DNA from: Gemmatimonadota bacterium
GTDB lineage: Bacteria > Gemmatimonadota > Gemmatimonadetes > Palauibacterales > Palauibacteraceae
Direction: 5' to 3'
DNA: 64,000 nt
Assembly (NCBI GenBank): GCA_022826685.1
Contig: JAJDUL010000049.1
Span: 1-64,000 of the forward strand
In this document: one piece after another, positions 11,468 through 40,776 of the stretch
Position numbering within the stretch: position 1 is the first letter of the stretch
How the letters are laid out: every line of letters starts with the position of its first letter
The notes under the pieces: generated by a model
The model's input: the letters and a program-made list of their open reading frames with translations, nothing else
What the model was told of the DNA's origin: nothing
Database searches by the model: none
Made by a program: the position numbers and the translations under genes

Positions 11468-12850
11468 TCAGGTCCGGAACAGCTCTTGCTGCAGCTGGCC
11501 GACGCGGCCGCGAAGCGTGGCATCCGACGCCATGTCCGCCTCGACCTTGTTGACGGAGTGAATGACGGTGGAGTGATTCCTGCCGCCGAAGAGGTGGCCG
11601 ATGTCGGAATAGGGCAGGTCGAGATGCGTCTTGATGAGGTACATGGCGACCTGCCGGGGAACGGTCACGGTCCGGTTCCGCCGCTTTGAGATGAGTGCTT
11701 CCACCGAGACGCCCCAGGAAGCGGCGATGCGGGCGCGGACTTCTTCCGCCGAGACTTCGATCACCTGCTCATCGGCCTCGTTCCCCTCGGGCCCCAGTGC
11801 GTCGCGCGCCATGTCGAGCGAAATCTCGCGTCGCGTGAGAGAGCTGAAGGCGAGGAGCTTGATCAGGGCGCCCTCGAGCTGCCGCACGGAGGTCCGCCGA
11901 CTCCGCGCGACGTACTCGATGACGTCGTCGTCGATTTCGATCCCGTCCTCGTCGGCCTTCTTGCGCAGGATCGCGGAACGCGTCTCCAGGTCGGGGGGCT
12001 GGATGTCGGTGACGAGACCCCACTCGAACCGGGAAACGAGGCGTTCCTGGAGCCCGGGGATGTCCTGCGGCGGCCGGTCGCTCGTGATGACGATCTGCTT
12101 CTTTGCGTCGTAGAGCGCGTTGAAGGTGTGGAAAAACTCTTCCTGCGTCCCTTCCTTGTTGGCGATGAAGTGAACGTCGTCGATGAGCAGTACGTCGATC
12201 CGGCGATAGCGCTCGCGGAAGAGGGCCGTCTGCCCGGTCCTGATCGCATCGATCATCTCGTTCGTGAACTGCTCGGAAGGGACGTAGGCGACCTGGCAGT
12301 CCGGGAGGCGGTCGAGAATCGTGTTGCCGATCGCGTGCATCAGGTGTGTCTTGCCGAGGCCGGTGCCGCCCCAGATGAAGAGCGGGTTGTACGTCGTGGC
12401 CGGTGCGGCGGCGACGCGATCCGACGCCGCCGCGGCGAGTTCGTTGCTGCCGCCAATGACGAAACGTGCGAAGGTGTAGCGTTCGTTCAGCGCCGCCGCT
12501 GCGGGAAGGCCTCCGCGATTCGGCGTCTGCGCGGCCAGCGCGTGACCGGGGTCGCCGGGGTAGGGTTCCGTGATCTCCGGGAAGTCGAGACGCTCCTCGG
12601 CTCCCTTGTGCTCGAAGCGGAGTCGAAGTCTCGCGCCGAGCTCCCGCTCGGAGATGTCCCGCAGAAGCGTCCCGTACTTATCCTCGACCCATTCGACCGC
12701 GAACCTGGTGGGCGCGGAGACGACGAGCGTGTCGTCGGAAAGCGAGACGGCCTCGGTCGATCCGAGCCAGGTGCGATAGGTCTGCTCCGGGAGCACGAGC
12801 TTCGCCGACGCGCGAATCTTGATCCAGGCCTCGTGTGCAGTCAGCTCCAT
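11468..12850 (-). CDS. dnaA: Chromosomal replication initiator protein DnaA
   Basis: 460 residues with all four domains. Domain I starts MELTAHEAWIKIRASAKLVL; a short linker follows; the AAA+ domain has Walker A GGTGLGKTHLMHAIGN and Walker B DVLLIDDVHFI. The DNA-binding domain IV contains MYLIKTHLDLPYSDIGHLFG and GGRNHSTVIHSVNKVE, a slight variant of the usual GGRDHTTV signature. It binds DnaA boxes and opens oriC. A TTGACA/TAAGAT promoter lies about 50 bases upstream, divergent from the rpmH promoter. Confidence 0.98.
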   Translation of the reverse strand: MELTAHEAWIKIRASAKLVLPEQTYRTWLGSTEAVSLSDDTLVVSAPTRFAVEWVEDKYGTLLRDISERELGARLRLRFEHKGAEERLDFPEITEPYPGDPGHALAAQTPNRGGLPAAAALNERYTFARFVIGGSNELAAAASDRVAAAPATTYNPLFIWGGTGLGKTHLMHAIGNTILDRLPDCQVAYVPSEQFTNEMIDAIRTGQTALFRERYRRIDVLLIDDVHFIANKEGTQEEFFHTFNALYDAKKQIVITSDRPPQDIPGLQERLVSRFEWGLVTDIQPPDLETRSAILRKKADEDGIEIDDDVIEYVARSRRTSVRQLEGALIKLLAFSSLTRREISLDMARDALGPEGNEADEQVIEVSAEEVRARIAASWGVSVEALISKRRNRTVTVPRQVAMYLIKTHLDLPYSDIGHLFGGRNHSTVIHSVNKVEADMASDATLRGRVGQLQQELFRT

Positions 12851-22713: not shown

Positions 22714-22935
22714 ATGGTCGTTTCGGTAAAGATGAGCAGCAAGAACCAGATCGTGGTCCCAAAAGCCGCGCGGGAGGCGCTCGGCCTTGCACCCGGGGAC
22801 CGGCTCGCGGTGTCGGTCGACGGCGAAACCGTGAGAATGGAAAAGCTGCCGCCGGACGATGACGATCGTCTGCGGGGCCTGCTTCGGGATGTGGTCGACG
22901 CCGGCGATCTCTGGCCCGAACTCGAGGACGTCTGA
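22714..22935 (+). CDS. AbrB/MazE-type antitoxin
   Basis: 73 residues. The SpoVT/AbrB swapped-hairpin fold is clear from MSSKNQIVVPKAAREALGLA, then PGDRLAVSVDGETVRMEKLP. The C-terminal acidic tail (LRDVVDAGDLWPELEDV) probably wraps the cognate toxin. The next gene starts immediately after its TGA. It probably neutralises the PIN protein and represses the pair. Confidence 0.88.
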   Translation: MVVSVKMSSKNQIVVPKAAREALGLAPGDRLAVSVDGETVRMEKLPPDDDDRLRGLLRDVVDAGDLWPELEDV

Positions 22936-23397
22936 TTGGCGGACGCGGCGAACCCCGGCGGTCTCGAGGAACGCCTGACCGGGGCCGAACTCGTTCACGT
23001 CGACGCGCGCGTGTTCGCTCTTCACCTGATCGGCAGGGGCCCGACGAGACAGACCGATATCGTCTTCTCGGGGATTGCGAGCGGCGGCATCAGGGCCCAG
23101 ACGTCGAGTCTGACTCTGTACCAGATCCTCGCCGAGGTGTATCGGCAGGGAAAGCCGGCGTCGGCGCGCGATGTGGCGCGGAACATGCGCCTCTACCCTC
23201 GGCTGGACATCGTGTCGGCCGGCCCCGAGATCGCCATTCAGGCCGCCGAGGTACGGGCGCAGCTTGGAGGTCGGCCGGAACGAGCCCTGCAGATCGCCAC
23301 GGCGCTCGTCTCGGGCGCCGAGGTGTATCTTACATCAGGCTCGGGACTTCGCCGGATTGCCGGCATGCACGTGTTGAACGTCGAAGACTTCGGCTGA
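22936..23397 (+). CDS. PIN-domain toxin-like protein with degenerate active site
   Basis: 153 residues, TTG start directly abutting the antitoxin stop. The PIN fold is suggested by LVHVDARVFALHLIG (first Asp), LTLYQILAEVYRQGKPA (Glu), RALQIATALVSGAEVYLTSG and MHVLNVEDFG. In active VapC-type RNases the third strand-helix reads D-AL-IATAL and the end reads T-N-D; here these are R-ALQIATAL and T-S-G. Two of the four metal-binding acidic positions are therefore missing. It may be an inactive or altered-activity toxin. The reading frame is intact, so it is not a frameshift. Confidence 0.75.
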   Translation: MADAANPGGLEERLTGAELVHVDARVFALHLIGRGPTRQTDIVFSGIASGGIRAQTSSLTLYQILAEVYRQGKPASARDVARNMRLYPRLDIVSAGPEIAIQAAEVRAQLGGRPERALQIATALVSGAEVYLTSGSGLRRIAGMHVLNVEDFG

Positions 23398-23430
23398 GCC
23401 CGCTCCGGGCGCCGGTGCCGCGTTTCACCG

Positions 23431-24171
23431 TTAGCGTCTCCGCACGAGTCTCACGAGCGCCTTCAGCGGGTCGTAGAAGCGGTCGACGACCCGCTCCTTG
23501 AGGGGGATGATCGCGTTGTCCGTGATCGTGATGTGCTCGGGGCACACTTCCGTGCAGCACTTCGTGATGTTGCAGTAACCGATCCCTCCCGCGTCCCGGA
23601 GGAACTCGCTCCGGTCCTCCACATCGATCGGATTGAGGCTGTATCCGGCCGTTCTCACGAGGTAGGTGGGGCCGATGAACTCCTCGTGCTTCCTGTGCGA
23701 CCGGAGGACGTGGCAGACGTCCTGGCAGAGGAAACACTCGATGCACTTCCTCATCTCCTGCGCCCGGTCGATCTCGAACTGCTGCATGCGCCAGCCGTCG
23801 TCCGCATCGCGGGGGCGCGGCCTGAAACGCGGGATGGAGGCGTTGTTCCGGTACGCCTGGGAGACGTCGGCGACGAGGTCCTTGATGACGGGAAAGGCCT
23901 TCATCGGCGTGACCGTGATCGGTTCGTTCTCGCCGTAGTCGGAGAGCCGGGTCATGCACGTCAGGCGGGGGTGCCCGTTGACCTCGCAGCTGCAGGATCC
24001 GCACTTGCCGGCCTTGCAGTTCCAGCGCACCGCGAGATCCGGCGCGTGTTCCGCCTGGATACGGTGGATCGCGTCCAGCACGACCATGCCCTGGTCGGTC
24101 TCCACGGTGTAGGATTCGAGCCGTCCCTCGTCGTCGGACCCGCGGTAGACCTGGAAAGTTCGTTCCGCCAC
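23431..24171 (-). CDS. sdhB: Succinate dehydrogenase/fumarate reductase iron-sulfur subunit
   Basis: 246 residues. The [2Fe-2S] ligands are in CKAGKCGSCSCEVNG and LTC near residues 50-72. The C-terminal [4Fe-4S] and [3Fe-4S] ligands are in CIECFLCQDVCHV and YCNITKCCTEVCPEHI. It passes electrons from SdhA to the membrane quinone site. Last gene of sdhC-sdhA-sdhB, four bases after sdhA. Confidence 0.96.
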   Translation of the reverse strand: MAERTFQVYRGSDDEGRLESYTVETDQGMVVLDAIHRIQAEHAPDLAVRWNCKAGKCGSCSCEVNGHPRLTCMTRLSDYGENEPITVTPMKAFPVIKDLVADVSQAYRNNASIPRFRPRPRDADDGWRMQQFEIDRAQEMRKCIECFLCQDVCHVLRSHRKHEEFIGPTYLVRTAGYSLNPIDVEDRSEFLRDAGGIGYCNITKCCTEVCPEHITITDNAIIPLKERVVDRFYDPLKALVRLVRRR

Positions 24172-32163: not shown

Positions 32164-33075
32164 TCAGGCGCGCGAGACGTACTCCGCCAATCCCGTCGCC
32201 AAGTCGCGTGGCTGAAACGCCGGAAAACGACGTCGGGCCAGGTCTGAATCCGCGATCCCATCCTGGGTCACGAAGTCCACGGCATCGGGCGAAAGGATCT
32301 GGCCGGGGAGAAGGGCCGCACACGCCGCCGCGAGCTTTACGAGACTCGTCGGAACGTGGAGAATCGTCCGGCGCCGCCCGAGTACCGCCATGGCCGTCCG
32401 AACGACATCGTCCAGCGACATGACATCCGGTCCGCCGGCCTCCAGCGTGAGTCCGTCTCCCGCCGAACCCAGCGTCGCCTCGCACACGAGGTCCGCCAGG
32501 TCATCCACATGAATCGGGGTGATCCGCCCCGCTCCGTCCCCCAGCTGGGGAAAAACGAACGGAATCCCGCGAATGAGCGCGATGAAGCGATTCAGGCTCC
32601 GGTCTTCGGGGCCGTAGACCCATGAGGGTCGGACGATGACGTGGTCCAGGCCCGACTCACGCAGGGACGCCTCCGCCAGCCCCTTTGCGCGATACCAGGG
32701 GCGTGCGGAGGCGGGATCGGCCCCGACCCCGGACAGGTAGACGAGCTTGCGTACGCCCGCCTCCACCGCAGCCTCGACCAGGGCGGCGGTGCCCAGGGCG
32801 TCGACCTCCATGAACGTCCGGCCGCGCGCGGGCGACTCCACGGGATAGCCCGGGAACTGAACGGAGAGGATGGCCGTGTCCACGGCGTGCATCGCCGACG
32901 CGAGCCCGCCGTGCCGACGGACGTCTCCCTCGACGTATTCCGCCGGGAGCCCAAGCCTCGCCGCTCCGGCGGGGCTTCGGGTCAGCACGGCAACCTGCGC
33001 CCCGCGACGGTGCAGCCTCCGGACAAAGGCGCGTCCGAGGAAGCCCGTCCCGCCCGCGACGAGGATCCGAGGCAT
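32164..33075 (-). CDS. NAD(P)-binding SDR/NmrA-like epimerase family protein
   Basis: 303 residues with the Rossmann motif RILVAGGTGFLGRAFVRRLH, then YVEGDVRRHGGLASAMHAVD, KLVYLSGVGADPASA and RPSWVYGPEDRSLNRFI. The catalytic Tyr is shifted (RPWYRAKGLAEASLRES), as in complex-I NDUFA9-like and NmrA-type atypical SDRs. GGAGG precedes the ATG. It probably acts as a quinone- or electron-transport-related assembly protein or a sugar/lipid reductase; not determinable. Confidence 0.85.
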   Translation of the reverse strand: MPRILVAGGTGFLGRAFVRRLHRRGAQVAVLTRSPAGAARLGLPAEYVEGDVRRHGGLASAMHAVDTAILSVQFPGYPVESPARGRTFMEVDALGTAALVEAAVEAGVRKLVYLSGVGADPASARPWYRAKGLAEASLRESGLDHVIVRPSWVYGPEDRSLNRFIALIRGIPFVFPQLGDGAGRITPIHVDDLADLVCEATLGSAGDGLTLEAGGPDVMSLDDVVRTAMAVLGRRRTILHVPTSLVKLAAACAALLPGQILSPDAVDFVTQDGIADSDLARRRFPAFQPRDLATGLAEYVSRA

Positions 33076-33266: not shown

Positions 33267-35312
33267 ATGCTGGAACATCTGCTCGAAACCGAAGTGGCCA
33301 AGCGTCCACCGACCGTGCGCCTCCAGGGGCGGATCCTCTTCCTGACCGAAGACCCGGACCTCATCCGCCGGCAACTCGCGGGGGAGGACCTCGAATGGGA
33401 CCCCTCGATCCCCCTGCGCGACGACATCTCGACCGATGAGATCACGCCGGGCTGGGTCTGCTACCACTTCGACGAGAAGCTGGGGGAATACCCGTACGTC
33501 GGCCTCCTTTGCGGCGACGAGCGCCCGATCGGCCGCAACGACATCCGGAAGGGCGGCTTCGTGTGCTCGGTGTCCGGGAAGAGGCGCGGAAAAGGGTCCA
33601 GCCGGGAGGCTTCGCCCTATGCCGAGCGCGCCGCGGGACTCCGCGTCGTCATCGGAGAGAACATCGAGCGCATCTACGGGGAGAATTGCGCGAACATCGG
33701 CCTCCTCGCATCGACGGATTTCTCCCTGATCGAGAAGATCCGGCACGGCGAGGAGATCCCGCTCGACGCGTTCATCGGAGACGCGGGACGCATTCAGCGC
33801 GACATCATCGAGTACGGCGGATTGCTCGACTACGCCGTGGCGAGGCTGAAGGGACTCGTCACGCTCCCCGGCGTCACGGCCCCGGCGGACCGTCCCCAGA
33901 CGATTGCGGAAAAGATCATCGCCCGGCACTGGGTCACCGACGCGGCCTCCGGCGCGCTGGGCGTTCCCGCCGTGGAACCGGGCGACACCGGCTTCCTGCG
34001 GGCCGATCTTCGCTTCTCCCACGAGTACGTGACCCCCATGGCGTCGACGTTCTGGGAGGATTTCGCGGGCGACGCGGGGCTGAACCACACCGAGTCCATC
34101 GTTTTTTTCCGGGACCACCTCGCGTTCCTCGACGAAGTCATTACGGAGGAGAGGAAGGCGGCCGGCCTGCTCGACGCGGCCCACGCGCTGCACGACCGCC
34201 AGCGGGAGTTCGCCGCCGCGAAGGGCGTGCGCCTGCACGGCGAATTGCCCGACCGCACCGGGAGCGAGGGGATCTGCCACATCATGGTGCAGGACCGCTA
34301 CGCGCTCCCCGGCCAGATCATCATCGGCAGCGATTCGCACACTCCGCATTCGGGCGCGCTGGGATGCGTCGCCTTCGGGGTGGGGACGTCCGCGATCGTC
34401 AACGCCTGGGCGACTCGCGACGTCCGGCTGGAAGTGCCCGAGTCGATCCGGGTCAACATCACGGGCGAGCCGCCACCCGGCGTCGTGGCGAAGGACCTCA
34501 TCCTCGAACTGCTGCGTCACCCGACCGTCAAAAGCGGTGAGGCGATCGGCCGCATCATCGAGTTCACGGGGGAGGCCGTCGAGGCTCTGTCGATCGACGA
34601 GCGCGCGACGCTGACGAACATGGCGGCCGAGGTCGGGGGCTTCACCGGCGTCATCGCCCCGGACGAGAAGGCGGTGGCCTGGATCGCCGGGCGGCGTGGC
34701 GTGCCGGCGGCGGAGGTTCGGGCGCTGTGCGACGGACTGTACAGCGACGCGGGGGCGGATTACGCGGCGACGATCGAGATGGACGCGAGCGGCGTCGAAC
34801 CGATGGTCGCGACCCCCGGCGATCCCGGGAACGGCCAGCCCATCTCGGCCCTCGAAGGAGACGTGAGCCTCGATACGGTGTTCGTCGGGTCCTGCACGGG
34901 GGCGAAGCGGGCGGACTTCGAGATGTATGCCGGGGTGGCGCGGGAAGCGGTGGCGGCGGGGAAGCGGGTGCCCGCCTCCGTCCGGGCCTATGCCCAGTAC
35001 GGTTCAATCGATGTGGAGGCGTGGAGCCGGGAACAGGGCCACGACCAGGCCCTCAGGGATGCGGGATTCGACGTCCTCGCGCCCGGCTGCGGAGCGTGCA
35101 TCAACGCCGGGCCCGGGGTGTCGACGACGGCGGAGCAGGTCACAATCAGTTCGATCAACCGGAACTTCCCCGGCCGCAGCGGTCCGGGGCAGGTGTACCT
35201 CGCGAGTCCGCTGACGTGCGTGGCCTCGGCGATCGAGGGACGGATCGTCGCGTACGGAGACCAGGCGTGGAGCCGGGGGGCCGTGCGCCAGGGAGAGCGC
35301 CGGGCGAACTAG
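33267..35312 (+). CDS. Aconitase-family hydro-lyase with N-terminal swivel domain
   Basis: 681 residues. The swivel (small-subunit/LeuD-like) domain comes first: DDISTDEITPGW, then KGSSREASPYAERAAG (GSSRE) and GENCANIGLLAS. The large [4Fe-4S] domains follow: LNHTESIVFFRDH, IGSDSHTPHSGALG, TNMAAEVGGFTG, FVGSCTGAKRADFE and LAPGCGACINAGPG, giving all three cluster cysteines. AcnB has its swivel before domains 1-3 too, but with an extra HEAT-like domain that is missing here. Substrate (aconitate, isopropylmalate, homocitrate or other) is undetermined. Its stop overlaps the convergent fdhA stop by four bases. Confidence 0.88.
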   Translation: MLEHLLETEVAKRPPTVRLQGRILFLTEDPDLIRRQLAGEDLEWDPSIPLRDDISTDEITPGWVCYHFDEKLGEYPYVGLLCGDERPIGRNDIRKGGFVCSVSGKRRGKGSSREASPYAERAAGLRVVIGENIERIYGENCANIGLLASTDFSLIEKIRHGEEIPLDAFIGDAGRIQRDIIEYGGLLDYAVARLKGLVTLPGVTAPADRPQTIAEKIIARHWVTDAASGALGVPAVEPGDTGFLRADLRFSHEYVTPMASTFWEDFAGDAGLNHTESIVFFRDHLAFLDEVITEERKAAGLLDAAHALHDRQREFAAAKGVRLHGELPDRTGSEGICHIMVQDRYALPGQIIIGSDSHTPHSGALGCVAFGVGTSAIVNAWATRDVRLEVPESIRVNITGEPPPGVVAKDLILELLRHPTVKSGEAIGRIIEFTGEAVEALSIDERATLTNMAAEVGGFTGVIAPDEKAVAWIAGRRGVPAAEVRALCDGLYSDAGADYAATIEMDASGVEPMVATPGDPGNGQPISALEGDVSLDTVFVGSCTGAKRADFEMYAGVAREAVAAGKRVPASVRAYAQYGSIDVEAWSREQGHDQALRDAGFDVLAPGCGACINAGPGVSTTAEQVTISSINRNFPGRSGPGQVYLASPLTCVASAIEGRIVAYGDQAWSRGAVRQGERRAN

Positions 35313-38032
35313 ACGGGCTCGACCCTCACGGGACAGACCTTCAGTTCCGCCGTGTGCGTGATCGGGTCGTAGCCGCCGCCGGTCAGGAAGTTCACCGGCA
35401 CGTCGTTGAAGCTGAACGAGGCAAAGACGGTTCCGGGCGGGGACCGGTCGTTGGCCTCGACCTTGATCCGTACCTGGCCGCGCGGGCTCGACATCATCGC
35501 CCAGCCCCCGTCCTCGAGACCCCATTTCGACACGTCGGACGGGTGCATCTCGAGACTCTCTTCGGACAACAGGTACTCGATCCCCGCGGCACGCCCCGTC
35601 TGCGTTCTCGTGTGATAGGCCGGCAGTCGGCGCCCCGTCGTAAGCCAGATCGGGTATTCGTCCGAGATCGTCTCGGCCGGGTCCCGGTATCGGATCAACT
35701 GGAAGATGCCGCGCCCGTTTTCGAACTCGCCCTTGTGAAGGATGGGCGTGCCGGGATGGCCCGGCTCCGGCACCGGCCAGTGGTACTCGCCGTCCGCGAT
35801 GAGATCCCAATCCAGGCCGGCGTAGATCGGTGAGAGCGAGCAGAGTTCGTTGAACACCTCCTTCGCCGACTCGAACTCGAAACCCTCCAGCCCCATGCGC
35901 TGCGCGATGCGGGACACGCACCACCAGTCGGGCTTCGCCTCGCCCGGCGGATCGACCGCCTTCCGCAGACGCTGCACGCGCCGCTCCGTATTCGAACAGA
36001 CGCCGTCCGTCTCCGCCCAGGCGGTGGCCGGGAGGACGACGTCGGCCAACTGCGCCGTCTCGGTGAGGAAGATGTCGATCACGACGAGATGGTCGAGACT
36101 CCCGAGCGCATGCTCGCAATGCTCCCGGTCGGGGTCCGTGACGACGGTGTTCTCGCCATTGATGATCATGGCGCGGATCCGGTCGCCGCACATGTCGAGC
36201 GCCGTGACCTTCGTGGGCCCCAGTTCCAGGTCCACTTCCCGGCCGTACGCCTCGGCGAACTTCGCCTGGTACACCGGGTCGAGTACGTCCTGGAAGCCGG
36301 GATAGTTGTTCGGCAGCGCCCCGCTGTCTCCCGCGCCCTGGATGTTGTTCTGGCCGCGCATCGGATTGATGCCGGTCCCCTCGCGGCCGACGTTCCCGGT
36401 CATGAGGGCGAGATTGCAGAGGCTCTGCACGTTGTCGACGCCGCAGATGTGCTCCGTGATCCCGAGCGTGTAGTAGATGGCTCCGCGTTCGGCCTTCGCG
36501 TACCAGCGCGCCGCCTCCGCGATAAGCTTCGCGTCCACGCCGGTGATGGACTCGGCCCATTCCGGCGGGTATTCCAGGACGTGCTCCATGAAGTCCCGGC
36601 CCTCCGTCGTGCGGTCGGCCACGAAGTCGTCGTCCAGCAGTCCCTCGCGTGCGATCACGTGGGCCATGCCGAGCAGGAGCGCGACGTCGGATCCCACCCT
36701 CAGCGGCAGGTAGATGTCTGCCATCTCGGCCAGCGCGATCCGCCTCGGATCGGCGACGATGAGCTTGGCGCCCCGCGCCACCGCGCGCTTGATGCGGGTG
36801 GCCGCGACGGGATGGCACTCGGTCATGTTGGTCCCGATGCAGAAGATCACATCGGGCTTGTCCATGTCCGCGAGTGGGTTCGACATCGCCCCCCGTCCGA
36901 TTGAGGCCGCCAGACCGGCGACCGTGGGGGCGTGTCAAGCACGGCTGCAGTTGTCAATCTGGTTCGTACCGAACGCGCCTCGGATGAACCGCTGCATCAT
37001 GTAGGCCGCCTCGTGCGGCGCACGTCCGGAGGCGACGCCGTACACGGAATGCCTGCCGTGATTCTCCACGGCCGCCGTGAAACCCGCCGCCGCGCGGTCG
37101 AGGGCCGTGTCCCAGTCGGTCTCGTGGAGTTCGCCGTCCTCGCCCCGCACCATCGGATAGGCGAGCCGGTCGGGGTGCTGCACGAAGTCGAAGGCGAATT
37201 GTCCCTTGACGCAGAGCGCGCCCTCGTTGGCGGGCCCGTCCATCGCCGGCTGGACGCCGATCAGCGTATCCCCGCGGGACAGCAGGTCGACGGAGCACCC
37301 GACGCCGCAGTAGGGACACACGGTACGCGTCTTCTCGGTCTCCCCCGGCACGTCGGCGTTCGCGAGCGCCTTGATGTCCGCGAGCGCGCCGGTCGGGCAC
37401 GTCTGTATGCACTGCCCGCAGAACGTGCAGGCGGAGTCCCCCAGCAGGCCCTCGAACTCCGTCGTGATCTGCGTGTCGAACCCGCGATTCATGATCGAGA
37501 TCGCGTAGTCGCCCTCCTGTTCGGCGCAGACGCGCACGCAGCGATAGCAGGAGATGCAGTTATCGTAGTCGCGGAGGATGAAGGGGTTGTCGTCGTCGGG
37601 CCGGCTGCGGCCGGACCTGGCCCCGGCGAAACGGCCCGTCCGGGCGTCGTAGCGGTCGAGCAGCACCGCCATCTCCTGCGAGGCGTATCCGGAAAGCGGA
37701 TCGACGTCCGTGTCGCGGTTCTCGGAGGCGAGCATCTCCATGAGCACCCGGCGGTGCATGTCGAGCCGCGCCGAGCGGGTCGTCATCCGCATCCCGGGCT
37801 CCGCCCGCGTGGTGCAGGAGGCGACGGGGTTGCGGGCGCCCTCGAGTTCAACGATGCAGAGGCGGCAGGCACCGAAGGCTTCCAGGCGTGGATCGTAGCA
37901 CAGCGTCGGGATCTCCTTGCGGTGCCGCTCGGAGACCTCGTAAAGGCTCTCGCCCCGACGGACGCCCACCTTCGCGCCGTCGAGCGTGATCTCGAAATCG
38001 AAGCCTGCGCCGTTACCCGAGTTGTCGCTCAA
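35309..38032 (-). CDS. fdhA: NAD-dependent formate dehydrogenase alpha subunit, selenoprotein (in-frame UGA at active site)
   Basis: 907 residues read through TGA at 36935-36937 (residue 366). TTG 38032 is chosen because GGAGG lies five bases upstream. Domains: N-terminal [2Fe-2S] (CYDPRLEAFGACRLCIVELE), two ferredoxin clusters (CISCYRCVRVCAEQEG, CTFCGQCIQTCPTG), a molybdopterin-binding [4Fe-4S] (CPYCGVGCSVDL) and Mo/W-bisMGD domains to the C-terminus. The active site reads NCSRA-UGA-HAPTVAGL, where other formate dehydrogenases have Cys or selenocysteine. The frame continues unchanged on both sides for hundreds of codons, so UGA is best read as selenocysteine. The partner subunit and fdhD are adjacent. 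Confidence 0.92.
36905..36923 (-). promoter_or_regulatory. SECIS-like hairpin in fdhA
   Basis: Eleven bases after the UGA, GGTCGCC-GGTCT-GGCGGCC forms a 7-bp stem (one G-U) with loop GGUCU. E. coli fdhF has an equally placed stem with the same GGUCU loop, recognised by SelB. Confidence 0.88.
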
Positions 38033-38148
38033 ACCCACCTCCGGAGGCCCGGGGCGTTGCGCCGCTGGAAACTGCCGGGCCGACTAAAATGACGTATCGC
38101 GCCCGCCACGACAAATCCGGCCCTCGTCCCCCGTCCGGGAATCTGCTG

Positions 38149-39813
38149 TTAGACGGACCCGGCGACGTGCCTGGAGATGCGATCGGGGAAGTAGCGAATG
38201 AGGCTCTCGGTGATGAGGGGAGCGGCCTGCCCGAGTCCGCACGCGCTCGTCTGCATCATCGTGTCGCCGAGGTCATGCACCTCGTCGATCCAGGCGGCAA
38301 TCTCGAGCGGGCCCTCGCCGTGCAGGCGCTCGGTGAGGCGCTGCGTGCCGATGCGGCAGGGGAAACACTTGCCGCACGATTCCTCGGCAAAGAACTCCAT
38401 GGCGGAATGGGCGACCTCGATCATGTCGCGGGAGTCGTCGAAGACCATGATGCCGCCGGCGCCCAGGAACGACCCCTTCGAGCGGATGTCGGGCTCGTCC
38501 AGCGTGACGGCGAGATCATCTCCCGCCAGGAAGCCGCCCGAGAGCCCCGCCATCGTCACCGCCTGGATCTTCCGCCCGCGCGGGACGCCACCGGCCCAGT
38601 CGTCGATCAGCGTCATCAGGGGGAAGCCCATGGGCACTTCGTAGTTGCCGGGGCGAGCGACGTCCCCGGAGAGCGAGATCACCTTCGTGCCCGCGTGGTC
38701 TCCGATCCCGAGATCCCGATACCAGTCGGCGCCGTGCACGAGGATATGGGGCACGGAAGCCAGCGTTTCGACGTTGTTCACGACCGTGGGAAGATCCTCG
38801 TACCCGTGCGTCACCGGGAAGGGCGGCCGGTTGCGCGGAAACGGGTGCTTGCCCTCGAGACTGTTGAGAAGGGACGTCTCCTCGCCGCAGATGTAGGCGC
38901 CCGCGCCGCGGCGCACCCAGAGGTCGAACGGCCGTCCGGGCCCGAAGGCGTCCGGCCCCAGCAGCCCGCCGGCGCGGGCCTCCTCCAGGGCCGTCTCGAG
39001 GATGCGCATCGTGTCCGGATACTCGTAGCGGAGGTAGATGAACCCGCGCGTGGCCCCCGTCGCGAAGCCGGCGGCGATCATCCCCTCGATCACCGCGTGC
39101 GGGTCGTAGTCCATCAGCGCCCGGTCCTTGAAGCAGCCCGGCTCCCCCTCGTCCGCGTTGCAGACGATGGTCTTGGGCTCCCCCGCGGCCTCCGCCACGG
39201 CCCGCCACTTCCGTCCCGTTGGGAAGCCGGCGCCGCCCCGCCCGGCCAGACCGCTCGCGTCGATGACATCGAGGAGCGCATCGGGCCGCCCGCGGAGGGC
39301 GTTCTCCAGACCGGCATAGCCGCCCGTCGCCCGATAGCCCGCCAGCGTGGCGCGTCCGGGAGATCGGATGTGCGCGAACACACATTCCTCGATGTCCGGC
39401 GGCACCGCGGGCGGAAGGGGAGAAGGCCGGGAGGAGAGTTCCGCAACCGTCGCTCCGCAGAGAACCCGGTCGCGGTCGAGAACCGGAATCGGCTCGTCGC
39501 AGCGACCGGGGCAGGGCATCGCATGCGCGTCCGGCAGCGCGGCCAGCAGTTCGTCGGCCCCCGCGAGAGCGCAGATCGGCCCCGTGCAGACGCGGGGGTG
39601 AGAGTAACCCTCGGGGTCTCGCGAAAAGTGGTGGTAGAAGGTCACCGTGCCGAAGAGGTCGGCGATCGGAATCCGCAGATCCTCGGAGATGGCTCGAAGC
39701 GACTCCTCCGAGAGGAACCCATCCCTCTCGTGGAAGTCATGCAGCAGGGGGAGCAGAGGAGCGGGCCGGGTCCGCCACTTCGCGAGCAGATCCGCGTCCG
39801 AGGGCGTGTTCAT
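38149..39813 (-). CDS. Formate dehydrogenase diaphorase subunit, NuoE-NuoF (FdsG-FdsB) fusion
   Basis: 554 residues from ATG 39813 (an ATG at 39849 is possible). The N-terminal thioredoxin-like NuoE part has RVCTGPICALAG and CPGRCDEP, four [2Fe-2S] cysteines. The C-terminal NuoF part has GRGGAGFPTGRKW (NADH/FMN), GAGAYICGEETSLLNSLEG and the [4Fe-4S] ligands SCGKCFPCRIG and ACGLGQA. It transfers electrons from the FdhA chain to NAD+. It lies about 110 bases before fdhA on the same strand and divergent from fdhD, indicating a soluble NAD-linked enzyme. Confidence 0.94.
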   Translation of the reverse strand: MNTPSDADLLAKWRTRPAPLLPLLHDFHERDGFLSEESLRAISEDLRIPIADLFGTVTFYHHFSRDPEGYSHPRVCTGPICALAGADELLAALPDAHAMPCPGRCDEPIPVLDRDRVLCGATVAELSSRPSPLPPAVPPDIEECVFAHIRSPGRATLAGYRATGGYAGLENALRGRPDALLDVIDASGLAGRGGAGFPTGRKWRAVAEAAGEPKTIVCNADEGEPGCFKDRALMDYDPHAVIEGMIAAGFATGATRGFIYLRYEYPDTMRILETALEEARAGGLLGPDAFGPGRPFDLWVRRGAGAYICGEETSLLNSLEGKHPFPRNRPPFPVTHGYEDLPTVVNNVETLASVPHILVHGADWYRDLGIGDHAGTKVISLSGDVARPGNYEVPMGFPLMTLIDDWAGGVPRGRKIQAVTMAGLSGGFLAGDDLAVTLDEPDIRSKGSFLGAGGIMVFDDSRDMIEVAHSAMEFFAEESCGKCFPCRIGTQRLTERLHGEGPLEIAAWIDEVHDLGDTMMQTSACGLGQAAPLITESLIRYFPDRISRHVAGSV

Positions 39814-39939
39814 GCCGTCATAGTTACCCGCCGACACGAATAGCGGCAAACGACTTCCGGCACCTCATGGGCGTCGGGCACGACCGTCGACAGAGCGCTT
39901 GCTCCGGCACCCCGGAGTTCGACACCGTAACTTCGGCCC

Positions 39940-40776
39940 ATGATTACGCCCCGAAGGAACACCGCCCGCGTCGACATCGATCGCGTGTCCGAAGCCTCGA
40001 GCCGAAGGCGGCGCGACGCCGTCGCGGTCGAAGAGCCGCTCGAGATCCGGATCGCGCCCGCGGATGGGGGAGAGCACCAGGTCGCCGTGACGATGCGGAC
40101 GCCGGGGGATGATTTCGACCTCACGGCCGGGTTCCTCTTCTCGGAGGGGCTGCTGGGGCAGCGGTCCGAACTTGCCGATCTGCGGTACTGCGTCGACGTG
40201 GAAACGCAGGAGTACAATATCGTCACCGCGCACCTGACCGAGACGGCGCGCTTCGACCCGGCCGAGTTGACCCGGAACTTCTATACGACCTCGAGCTGCG
40301 GGGTGTGCGGAAAGGCGTCTCTCGAGGCGATCGAGATTCAAGGCTGCGCCCCCATCCCGGCCGAGGGGCCGACGGTCGCGGCGGAGGTCGTGCGCACCCT
40401 CCCGGAAGCGCTTCGCCGCCGTCAGCCGGTGTTCGAACGGACGGGCGGGCTGCACGCGGCCGGCCTGTTCGACACGACCGGTGAACTGCGTCTCCTGCGC
40501 GAAGACATCGGACGCCACAATGCGCTCGACAAGGTGATCGGCGACCGGTTCCTCCAGGGAGATCTGCCGCTGGGCGATATGGTGCTGGCCGTGAGCGGCC
40601 GGGCCTCCTTCGAGATCATGCAGAAGGCGCTCGCCGCCGGAATCCCGATCGTGGCGGCCGTGGGTGCCCCCTCGAGCCTTGCCGTCGACGTGGCCGCGGA
40701 GTTCGGGATGACGCTGATCGGCTTCGCGAAGCCGACGGGATTCAACATCTACACGGGGCGCCACCGCGTCGGCTGA
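39940..40776 (+). CDS. fdhD: Formate dehydrogenase sulfurtransferase FdhD
   Basis: 278 residues. The catalytic CxxC loop is SSCGVCGKASLEAI near residue 122. Other family features are DFDLTAGFLFSEGLL, TGGLHAAGLFD, REDIGRHNALDKVIG, VSGRASFEIMQKALAAGIP and IGFAKPTGFNIYTG. It delivers sulfur to the molybdenum cofactor of formate dehydrogenase and is required for activity. It is divergent from the fdh structural genes. Confidence 0.96.
   Translation: MITPRRNTARVDIDRVSEASSRRRRDAVAVEEPLEIRIAPADGGEHQVAVTMRTPGDDFDLTAGFLFSEGLLGQRSELADLRYCVDVETQEYNIVTAHLTETARFDPAELTRNFYTTSSCGVCGKASLEAIEIQGCAPIPAEGPTVAAEVVRTLPEALRRRQPVFERTGGLHAAGLFDTTGELRLLREDIGRHNALDKVIGDRFLQGDLPLGDMVLAVSGRASFEIMQKALAAGIPIVAAVGAPSSLAVDVAAEFGMTLIGFAKPTGFNIYTGRHRVG

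Follow-up and report, generated by a model that had tools for sequence, protein, structure and literature searches.

Does the UGA codon that interrupts a formate dehydrogenase gene in a bacterium of the Gemmatimonadota end a broken reading frame, or does it specify a selenocysteine (Sec) in an intact enzyme? The question is raised by a 64,000-nucleotide stretch of DNA (henceforth the window), which lies on contig C21 of a 3.28 Mb genome assembly (90.85% complete, 73 contigs). An earlier reading of this DNA made without database searches (the sequence-only reading) had proposed a Sec formate dehydrogenase at this locus. Having followed up that proposal, we are highly confident that the locus codes for a Sec-dependent, cytosolic, NAD-linked formate dehydrogenase, whose UGA would be read as Sec via a SECIS element downstream of the codon.

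The fdhA gene and its neighborhood

The gene in question, fdhA (35309..38032, minus strand), is predicted to code for a selenoprotein formate dehydrogenase alpha subunit of 907 residues. It opens with a TTG start codon (38032-38030) preceded by GGAGG, runs for 365 codons to a TGA (36937-36935), the single interruption of the 907-codon frame, and continues for 541 codons to a TAG that ends at 35309. The coordinates and codon counts (365, 541 and 907) given by the sequence-only reading are exact, as is its sequence context NCSRA-UGA-HAPTVAGL; that the gene is on the minus strand had gone unstated. The UGA (36935..36937, minus strand) would specify Sec366 of the product (residue 378 in the longer query P0002). 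That ordinary gene calling would split such a gene had also been anticipated, and a plain list of open reading frames indeed yields it as two pieces (36935-38038 and 35309-36886, both minus).

The read-through protein combines 2Fe-2S, ferredoxin-type, molybdopterin and dinucleotide-binding domains (Pfam) and matches the formate dehydrogenase alpha family TIGR01591 over profile positions 1-672 of 672 with 720.7 bits against a cut-off of 666.25; this is the sole family past its curated cut-off among the 25 best of the 41 matched. The UGA falls on the metal-binding Cys/Sec site of formate dehydrogenases, where it is aligned with a Cys of the tungsten formate dehydrogenase 7vw6, the next residue being His; its placement at the active-site position in the sequence-only reading holds. 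PMC13188914, in the part drawn upon here, lists UHxP as the motif around Sec in formate dehydrogenase alpha. The host genome has no second match to FdhA at E<=1e-60.

Directly upstream of fdhA lies fdhB (38149..39849 as its longest frame, minus strand), a NuoE/NuoF-type diaphorase subunit with thioredoxin-like 2Fe-2S, FMN-binding 51K, SLBB and NuoF 4Fe-4S domains. Divergent from it is a gene of the FdhD/NarQ family, fdhD (39940..40776, plus strand), which ends in a TGA stop and whose role we take to be sulfur transfer to the formate dehydrogenase cofactor. Of the named loci, 65 have over 2.5 kb of upstream sequence; in 44 of these, fdhB immediately precedes fdhA on the same strand, in 52 it is present anywhere, and fdhD is present in 21. 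FdhA has a NuoG-like N-terminus and its partner gene is NuoE/F-like, the combination by which we assign the pair to the NAD-linked cytosolic FdhAB/Fds type. On the other side, an aconitase-family gene (33267..35312, plus strand) is convergent with fdhA; we regard it as a neighbor outside the system, and the stop-codon ends of the two genes overlap by four bases (35309-35312). Elsewhere in the window (12317-12373), an Rfam match to AsdA (33.2 bits against 52, E 0.006) is most likely due to chance.

Conservation of the UGA codon and of the frame around it

We collected relatives of FdhA using search peptide patterns that exclude the Sec site and, out of 184 matches, retained the 80 best, which are 67-99% identical to the query. 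By record title, these 80 comprise 43 from Gemmatimonadota, 14 from Verrucomicrobiota, eight each from Poribacteria and Planctomycetota, five from Pseudomonadota, one from Chloroflexota and one with no phylum; three further rows without a phylum in the relatives tree are outgroup rows. The codon at the UGA site is TGA in 80/80 of these best matches, and TGC or TGT, which the sequence-only reading had named as telling against Sec if seen in raw reads, occurs in 0/80. Likewise, 16 N-terminal Cys residues (positions 57-286), His379 and Arg571 are identical in 80/80 of the best 80 of 184; presumably they bind the clusters or take part in catalysis. Among ten distant relatives (at most 47% identity) that were read at this codon, nine have TGT or TGC, one (L125) has TGA and none has TGG. 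Hence, a return to Cys was seen nowhere in the near clade as read; the distant relatives that were read have Cys as a rule.

A sample of the phylum gave a concordant picture, with two candidates scored per genome and stop codons counted by hand rather than located. An FdhA match at E<=1e-180 was found in 104/395 genomes, and in 74 of these 104 at least one match reached 67% identity or more. Every site-covering match of this kind (73/73) has exactly one in-frame TGA, and four such matches that do not cover the site hold none. In the remaining 30 genomes, all matches (31 in total) are of 37-44% identity, with TGA in none and TAG in one. Where genome-search matches were read at the site (L102-L120), the TGA was located at the Sec codon in 19/19. 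The named relatives, the phylum-sample genomes and the genomes of the host genus overlap and are not independent samples.

The dN/dS ratio is low on both sides of the codon. In 12 pairwise comparisons, with relatives picked by hand from the 80 to span the range of identities, dN was 0.004-0.253 upstream and 0.015-0.229 downstream of the UGA. The ratio, computable on both sides in 9/12 comparisons (dS being saturated on at least one side in the other three), was 0.03-0.26 upstream and 0.05-0.21 downstream.

Some further observations concern individual relatives. Two of the 80 carry additional in-frame TGA codons: L063 has one at query residue 8, ahead of the start codon of the window gene, and L098 (a Litorilinea aerophila MAG) has two that lie close to query residues 240-245 within an insertion, which may reflect an assembly error, a real insertion or a broken gene. 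Relatives of 41-45% identity in five genomes of the same order and class (G042, which holds L125, G043, G047, G051 and G056) have one in-frame TGA each, its position at the Sec codon having been read in L125 only; other subfamilies of Sec enzymes thus probably exist in Gemmatimonadota. Partial FdhA matches in six genomes (G001, G107, G177, G189, G222 and G359) have their edges at residues 388-430, just past the UGA, and it may be that a near-identical SECIS stretch shared by co-occurring species breaks metagenome assemblies there.

A SECIS-like hairpin downstream of the UGA

A SECIS element was absent from the sequence-only reading; we found one just downstream of the fdhA UGA. Its apical hairpin (36906..36922, minus strand) has a consensus stem of 6 bp, a GGUCU loop and 18 nt from UGA to loop. 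The surrounding region (36882..36940, minus strand) matches the Rfam family SECIS_3 (RF01989) over model positions 1-59 of 59 with 51 bits and an E-value of 8.3e-9 over the whole window; this score is below the gathering score of 63, and the hairpin is hence not filed in SECIS_3, though it would work like a member. The bacterial SECIS model, as laid out in the part of PMC13188914 drawn upon, has a loop of 3-9 nt with a G within its first two positions, a stem of 4-16 bp, a spacing of 16-37 nt and a minimum free energy (MFE) of at most -7.5. The fdhA hairpin has a loop of 5 nt that begins with GG, a stem of 6 bp, a spacing of 18 nt and an MFE of -13.6 kcal/mol.

The consensus stem and loop were derived from 57 distinct sequences (alignment A2), namely the window, which replaces L022 (identical over 45 nt), and 56 loci distinct over these 45 nt. 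Three of the six pairs are invariant; of two others, one differs in a single sequence and the other loses its pairing in a single sequence. The sixth, formed by columns 21-33, joins the third base of a Val codon to that of an Ala codon, and was followed in 81 sequences (80 loci and the window), of which 65 are distinct over a block of 60 to 62 nt: it is C-G in 42, U-A in 17 and G-C in six, is mispaired in 0/65 and has changed at least nine times on the tree. It is the only always-pairing one among 109 variable third-position column pairs. Overall, 99.7% of the stem cells are paired versus 93.8% in shuffles, with 0/500 shuffles as high. Such compensatory change at synonymous sites, seen here in one pair only, is a sign of an RNA signal that would be selected inside the coding frame.

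Other measures of the RNA were negative or uninformative. The hairpin does not fold more stably than shuffled sequence (z -0.68; second run z -0.44), and the longer lower helix in the window's own fold is not conserved, with 47.4% of its cells paired. A search of the host genome with SECIS_1 (RF00031) gave no match; its control likewise gave 0/14 genomes, and the result is hence uninformative. The Rfam scan of the 64,000-nt window gave no second SECIS at E<=0.1. A SECIS model trained on FdhA, which cannot be expected to find selenoproteins other than FdhA, gave one other weak match in the host genome (E 0.38; 150 of 5055 first-look candidates scored). A strong SECIS match is present in 15/17 genomes of the host genus.

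Sec-decoding genes in the host genome and genus

The sequence-only reading had noted that the window holds no Sec genes and had predicted selA, selB, selC and selD for the host genome, the lack of selB or selC being what would have weighed against it. All four are present, each matched over its curated cut-off and each away from the window's contig. On contig C69 lie the genes for tRNA-Sec (75273-75364; 79.7 bits, with the anticodon TCA by ARAGORN), for SelB (68105-69967; 369.6 bits), which carries the RNA-binding wing domain SelB-wing_3, and for SelA (22831-24162; 498 bits). SelD is encoded on contig C35 (13378-14298, minus strand; 369.1 bits) and itself has one in-frame TGA, in the context GAGUACKLG. 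The tRNA-Sec model at E<=1e-10 matches 2/14 control genomes, namely those of E. coli and M. jannaschii.

Across the 17 genomes of the host genus, SelB and SelD are each found in 17/17, tRNA-Sec in 16/17 (all except G016), SelA in 16/17 (all except G006) and FdhA in 15/17. SelD has one TGA in 15/17, its position having been read in the host genome alone. Two genomes, G012 (85% complete) and G015 (94%), have SelB and SelD with FdhA undetected. For G015, SelD with its TGA is an additional client of the Sec machinery; in G012, whose SelD has no TGA, the absence of FdhA may come from genome incompleteness. Thus, the suggestion that Sec use could serve as a metabolic marker in this lineage stands in part: since 2/17 genomes have SelB without a detected FdhA, the sel genes do not predict FdhA, nor is FdhA the keeper of the Sec trait in all 17 genomes.

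Two kinds of unusual matches were also seen in the genus. The SelD of G006 and G012 scores lower, has no TGA and lies within a 749- or 793-residue open frame, which is perhaps a fusion. Extra SelB-like matches occur in G007 (C8:183302 and 200030), G009 (C5:16436 and 33143), G002 (C52:57416) and G013 (C4:187982); they cover approximately the first 265 of 581 SelB positions with 183-187 bits in open frames of 408-668 aa, and those in G007 and G009 are paired about 17 kb apart.

Alternative readings and a proposed mechanism

If the UGA were a real stop, arising from a nonsense mutation or a sequencing or assembly error, the locus would hold a disrupted gene or else a pair of separate, shorter proteins, of which the second would begin at the ATG at 36886. 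The mechanical list of open reading frames, with two frames that each have their own start codon, is what one would then expect; yet the UGA is kept in all of the best 80 of 184 named relatives under six phylum labels, and dN/dS is low both before and after it. Moreover, in each of the 12 comparisons the 16 codons between the UGA and the ATG at 36886 specify identical residues at 15 or 16 positions, even though as many as 11/16 codons differ. We therefore reject a broken gene or two proteins on codon conservation and dN/dS, and a chance UGA is excluded by the same two lines of evidence; the probability that we would leave to a real stop is very slight. Slighter still is that of a genome-wide reassignment of UGA to a sense codon such as Trp, the sole support for which is that the frame stays open when UGA is read through. 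We reject it, as UGA is the stop codon of the adjacent fdhD; UGA likewise terminates the gene at 32164-33075. The host genome also encodes SelA, SelB, SelD and a tRNA-Sec with a UCA anticodon, and the ten distant relatives have Cys codons or TGA, never TGG, at the site.

Somewhat less remote, though still improbable, is that the Sec enzyme is real and is a different molybdopterin oxidoreductase, or acts as a CO2 reductase in the cell. The families of formate dehydrogenase, nitrate reductase and NuoG are akin to one another and all match FdhA, and similar enzymes run both ways. Nevertheless, TIGR01591 alone passes its curated cut-off among the 25 best families, the best-matching solved structures bear the name formate dehydrogenase, and fdhB and fdhD adjoin fdhA, though none of these points fixes the direction in the cell.

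Strong sequence evidence hence points to fdhA being a genuine selenoprotein gene with a Sec residue. What was computed directly is the reading frame, the conserved codon, the hairpin and its compensatory changes, the sel genes, the domains and the gene order; Sec insertion itself, the metal, the NAD+ acceptor, the cellular location and the direction are proposed from what is typical of the respective families. In the Sec-dependent formate dehydrogenase that we favor, SelD would supply selenophosphate, which SelA would use to make Sec on its tRNA; SelB with Sec-tRNA(UCA) would bind the hairpin with the GGUCU loop just past the UGA and deliver Sec to the ribosome. The Sec would be a ligand of the active-site metal (Mo or W); FdhA would oxidize formate to CO2, with its Fe-S clusters handing the electrons to the NuoE/F-like FdhB, which would in turn reduce NAD+.

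Relation to known systems

The best solved relatives of FdhA are 7vw6 (654.6 bits), the alpha subunit of a tungsten formate dehydrogenase aligned over query residues 20-918, and 6tg9 (630.9 bits), a formate dehydrogenase aligned over residues 22-916. We take the former to be from Methylorubrum and the latter to be of the FdsA type, and both enzymes to have a diaphorase partner and NAD linkage. Unlike the fdhA described here, 7vw6 has a Cys at the site of the UGA, as 6tg9 presumably does too. E. coli formate dehydrogenase H (PDB 1aa6 and others) aligns with query residues 246-919 and leaves the N-terminal 245 residues of the query unmatched; presumably it has no NuoF-type diaphorase partner. 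According to the part of PMC13188914 drawn upon, it is likewise a Sec enzyme with a SECIS element.

A selenoprotein fdhA is also described, in the part of PMC4807772 drawn upon, from another phylum, in the planctomycete P1 from Porphyra; that text also speaks of multiple horizontal transfers of selenoprotein fdhA. In bins of sponge symbionts from various phyla, SelA and SelB co-occur in most, with no client selenoprotein named in the relevant passage and the word "formate" absent from the main text (PMC5649159). Among hadal MAGs, selA, selB and selD are given for 49%, 47% and 50%, respectively (PMC8938466, in the part drawn upon), and formate dehydrogenase alpha is given as the commonest bacterial selenoprotein family, with 822 organisms (PMC5029168, likewise). 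SELO homologues are listed for Gemmatimonadetes, their Sec content being unstated in the portion of PMC3281104 drawn upon. In the part of the open literature searched here, we found no description of a Sec-containing enzyme in Gemmatimonadota. The string "Gemmatimonad" is absent from the main text of three papers on selenium (PMC5029168, PMC13188914 and PMC12013277), as is "formate" from that of the papers on Palauibacterales and relatives (PMC10469786, PMC11596202 and PMC11651109), where the only "selen" is part of an author's name, in PMC10469786. The Sec formate dehydrogenase alpha family and sel genes in sponge symbionts are thus already known; what the fdhA described here adds is a Gemmatimonadota case.

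Lineage history and significance

The relatives of FdhA include proteins from Candidatus Palauibacter denitrificans (96% identical) and P. rhopaloidicola (97%). In a quick tree (LG+G4, run without bootstrap), 41/43 Gemmatimonadota rows, the five Pseudomonadota-titled rows and the window form one starred set of 47; the Pseudomonadota titles, we infer, may be those of misassigned bins. Verrucomicrobiota form one group (14 rows, support 98, starred), as do Poribacteria (eight rows, support 91, not starred); Planctomycetota are not grouped. This pattern fits a long residence of the Sec fdhA in Gemmatimonadota more than a recent transfer.

On a broader scale, it is conceivable, though we hold this tentatively and lean somewhat against it, that a Sec-only lineage of NAD-linked formate dehydrogenases, in which no member read here has gone back to Cys, spans Gemmatimonadota, Poribacteria, Verrucomicrobiota and Planctomycetota. 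Many of its carriers are marine or associated with sponges, and it would be a main client of the sel genes known from sponge symbionts. Were this so, formate oxidation in these bacteria would depend on selenium, and the lineage may have been overlooked because its gene is halved by ordinary gene calling.

The mechanism itself is ordinary and of the textbook kind; the value of the finding lies in a correct annotation and in a lineage trait. The locus offers a clean, testable Sec gene accompanied in its genome by its own decoding genes, in a phylum for which our search found no Sec enzyme described, and an annotation truncated at the UGA would hide formate oxidation.
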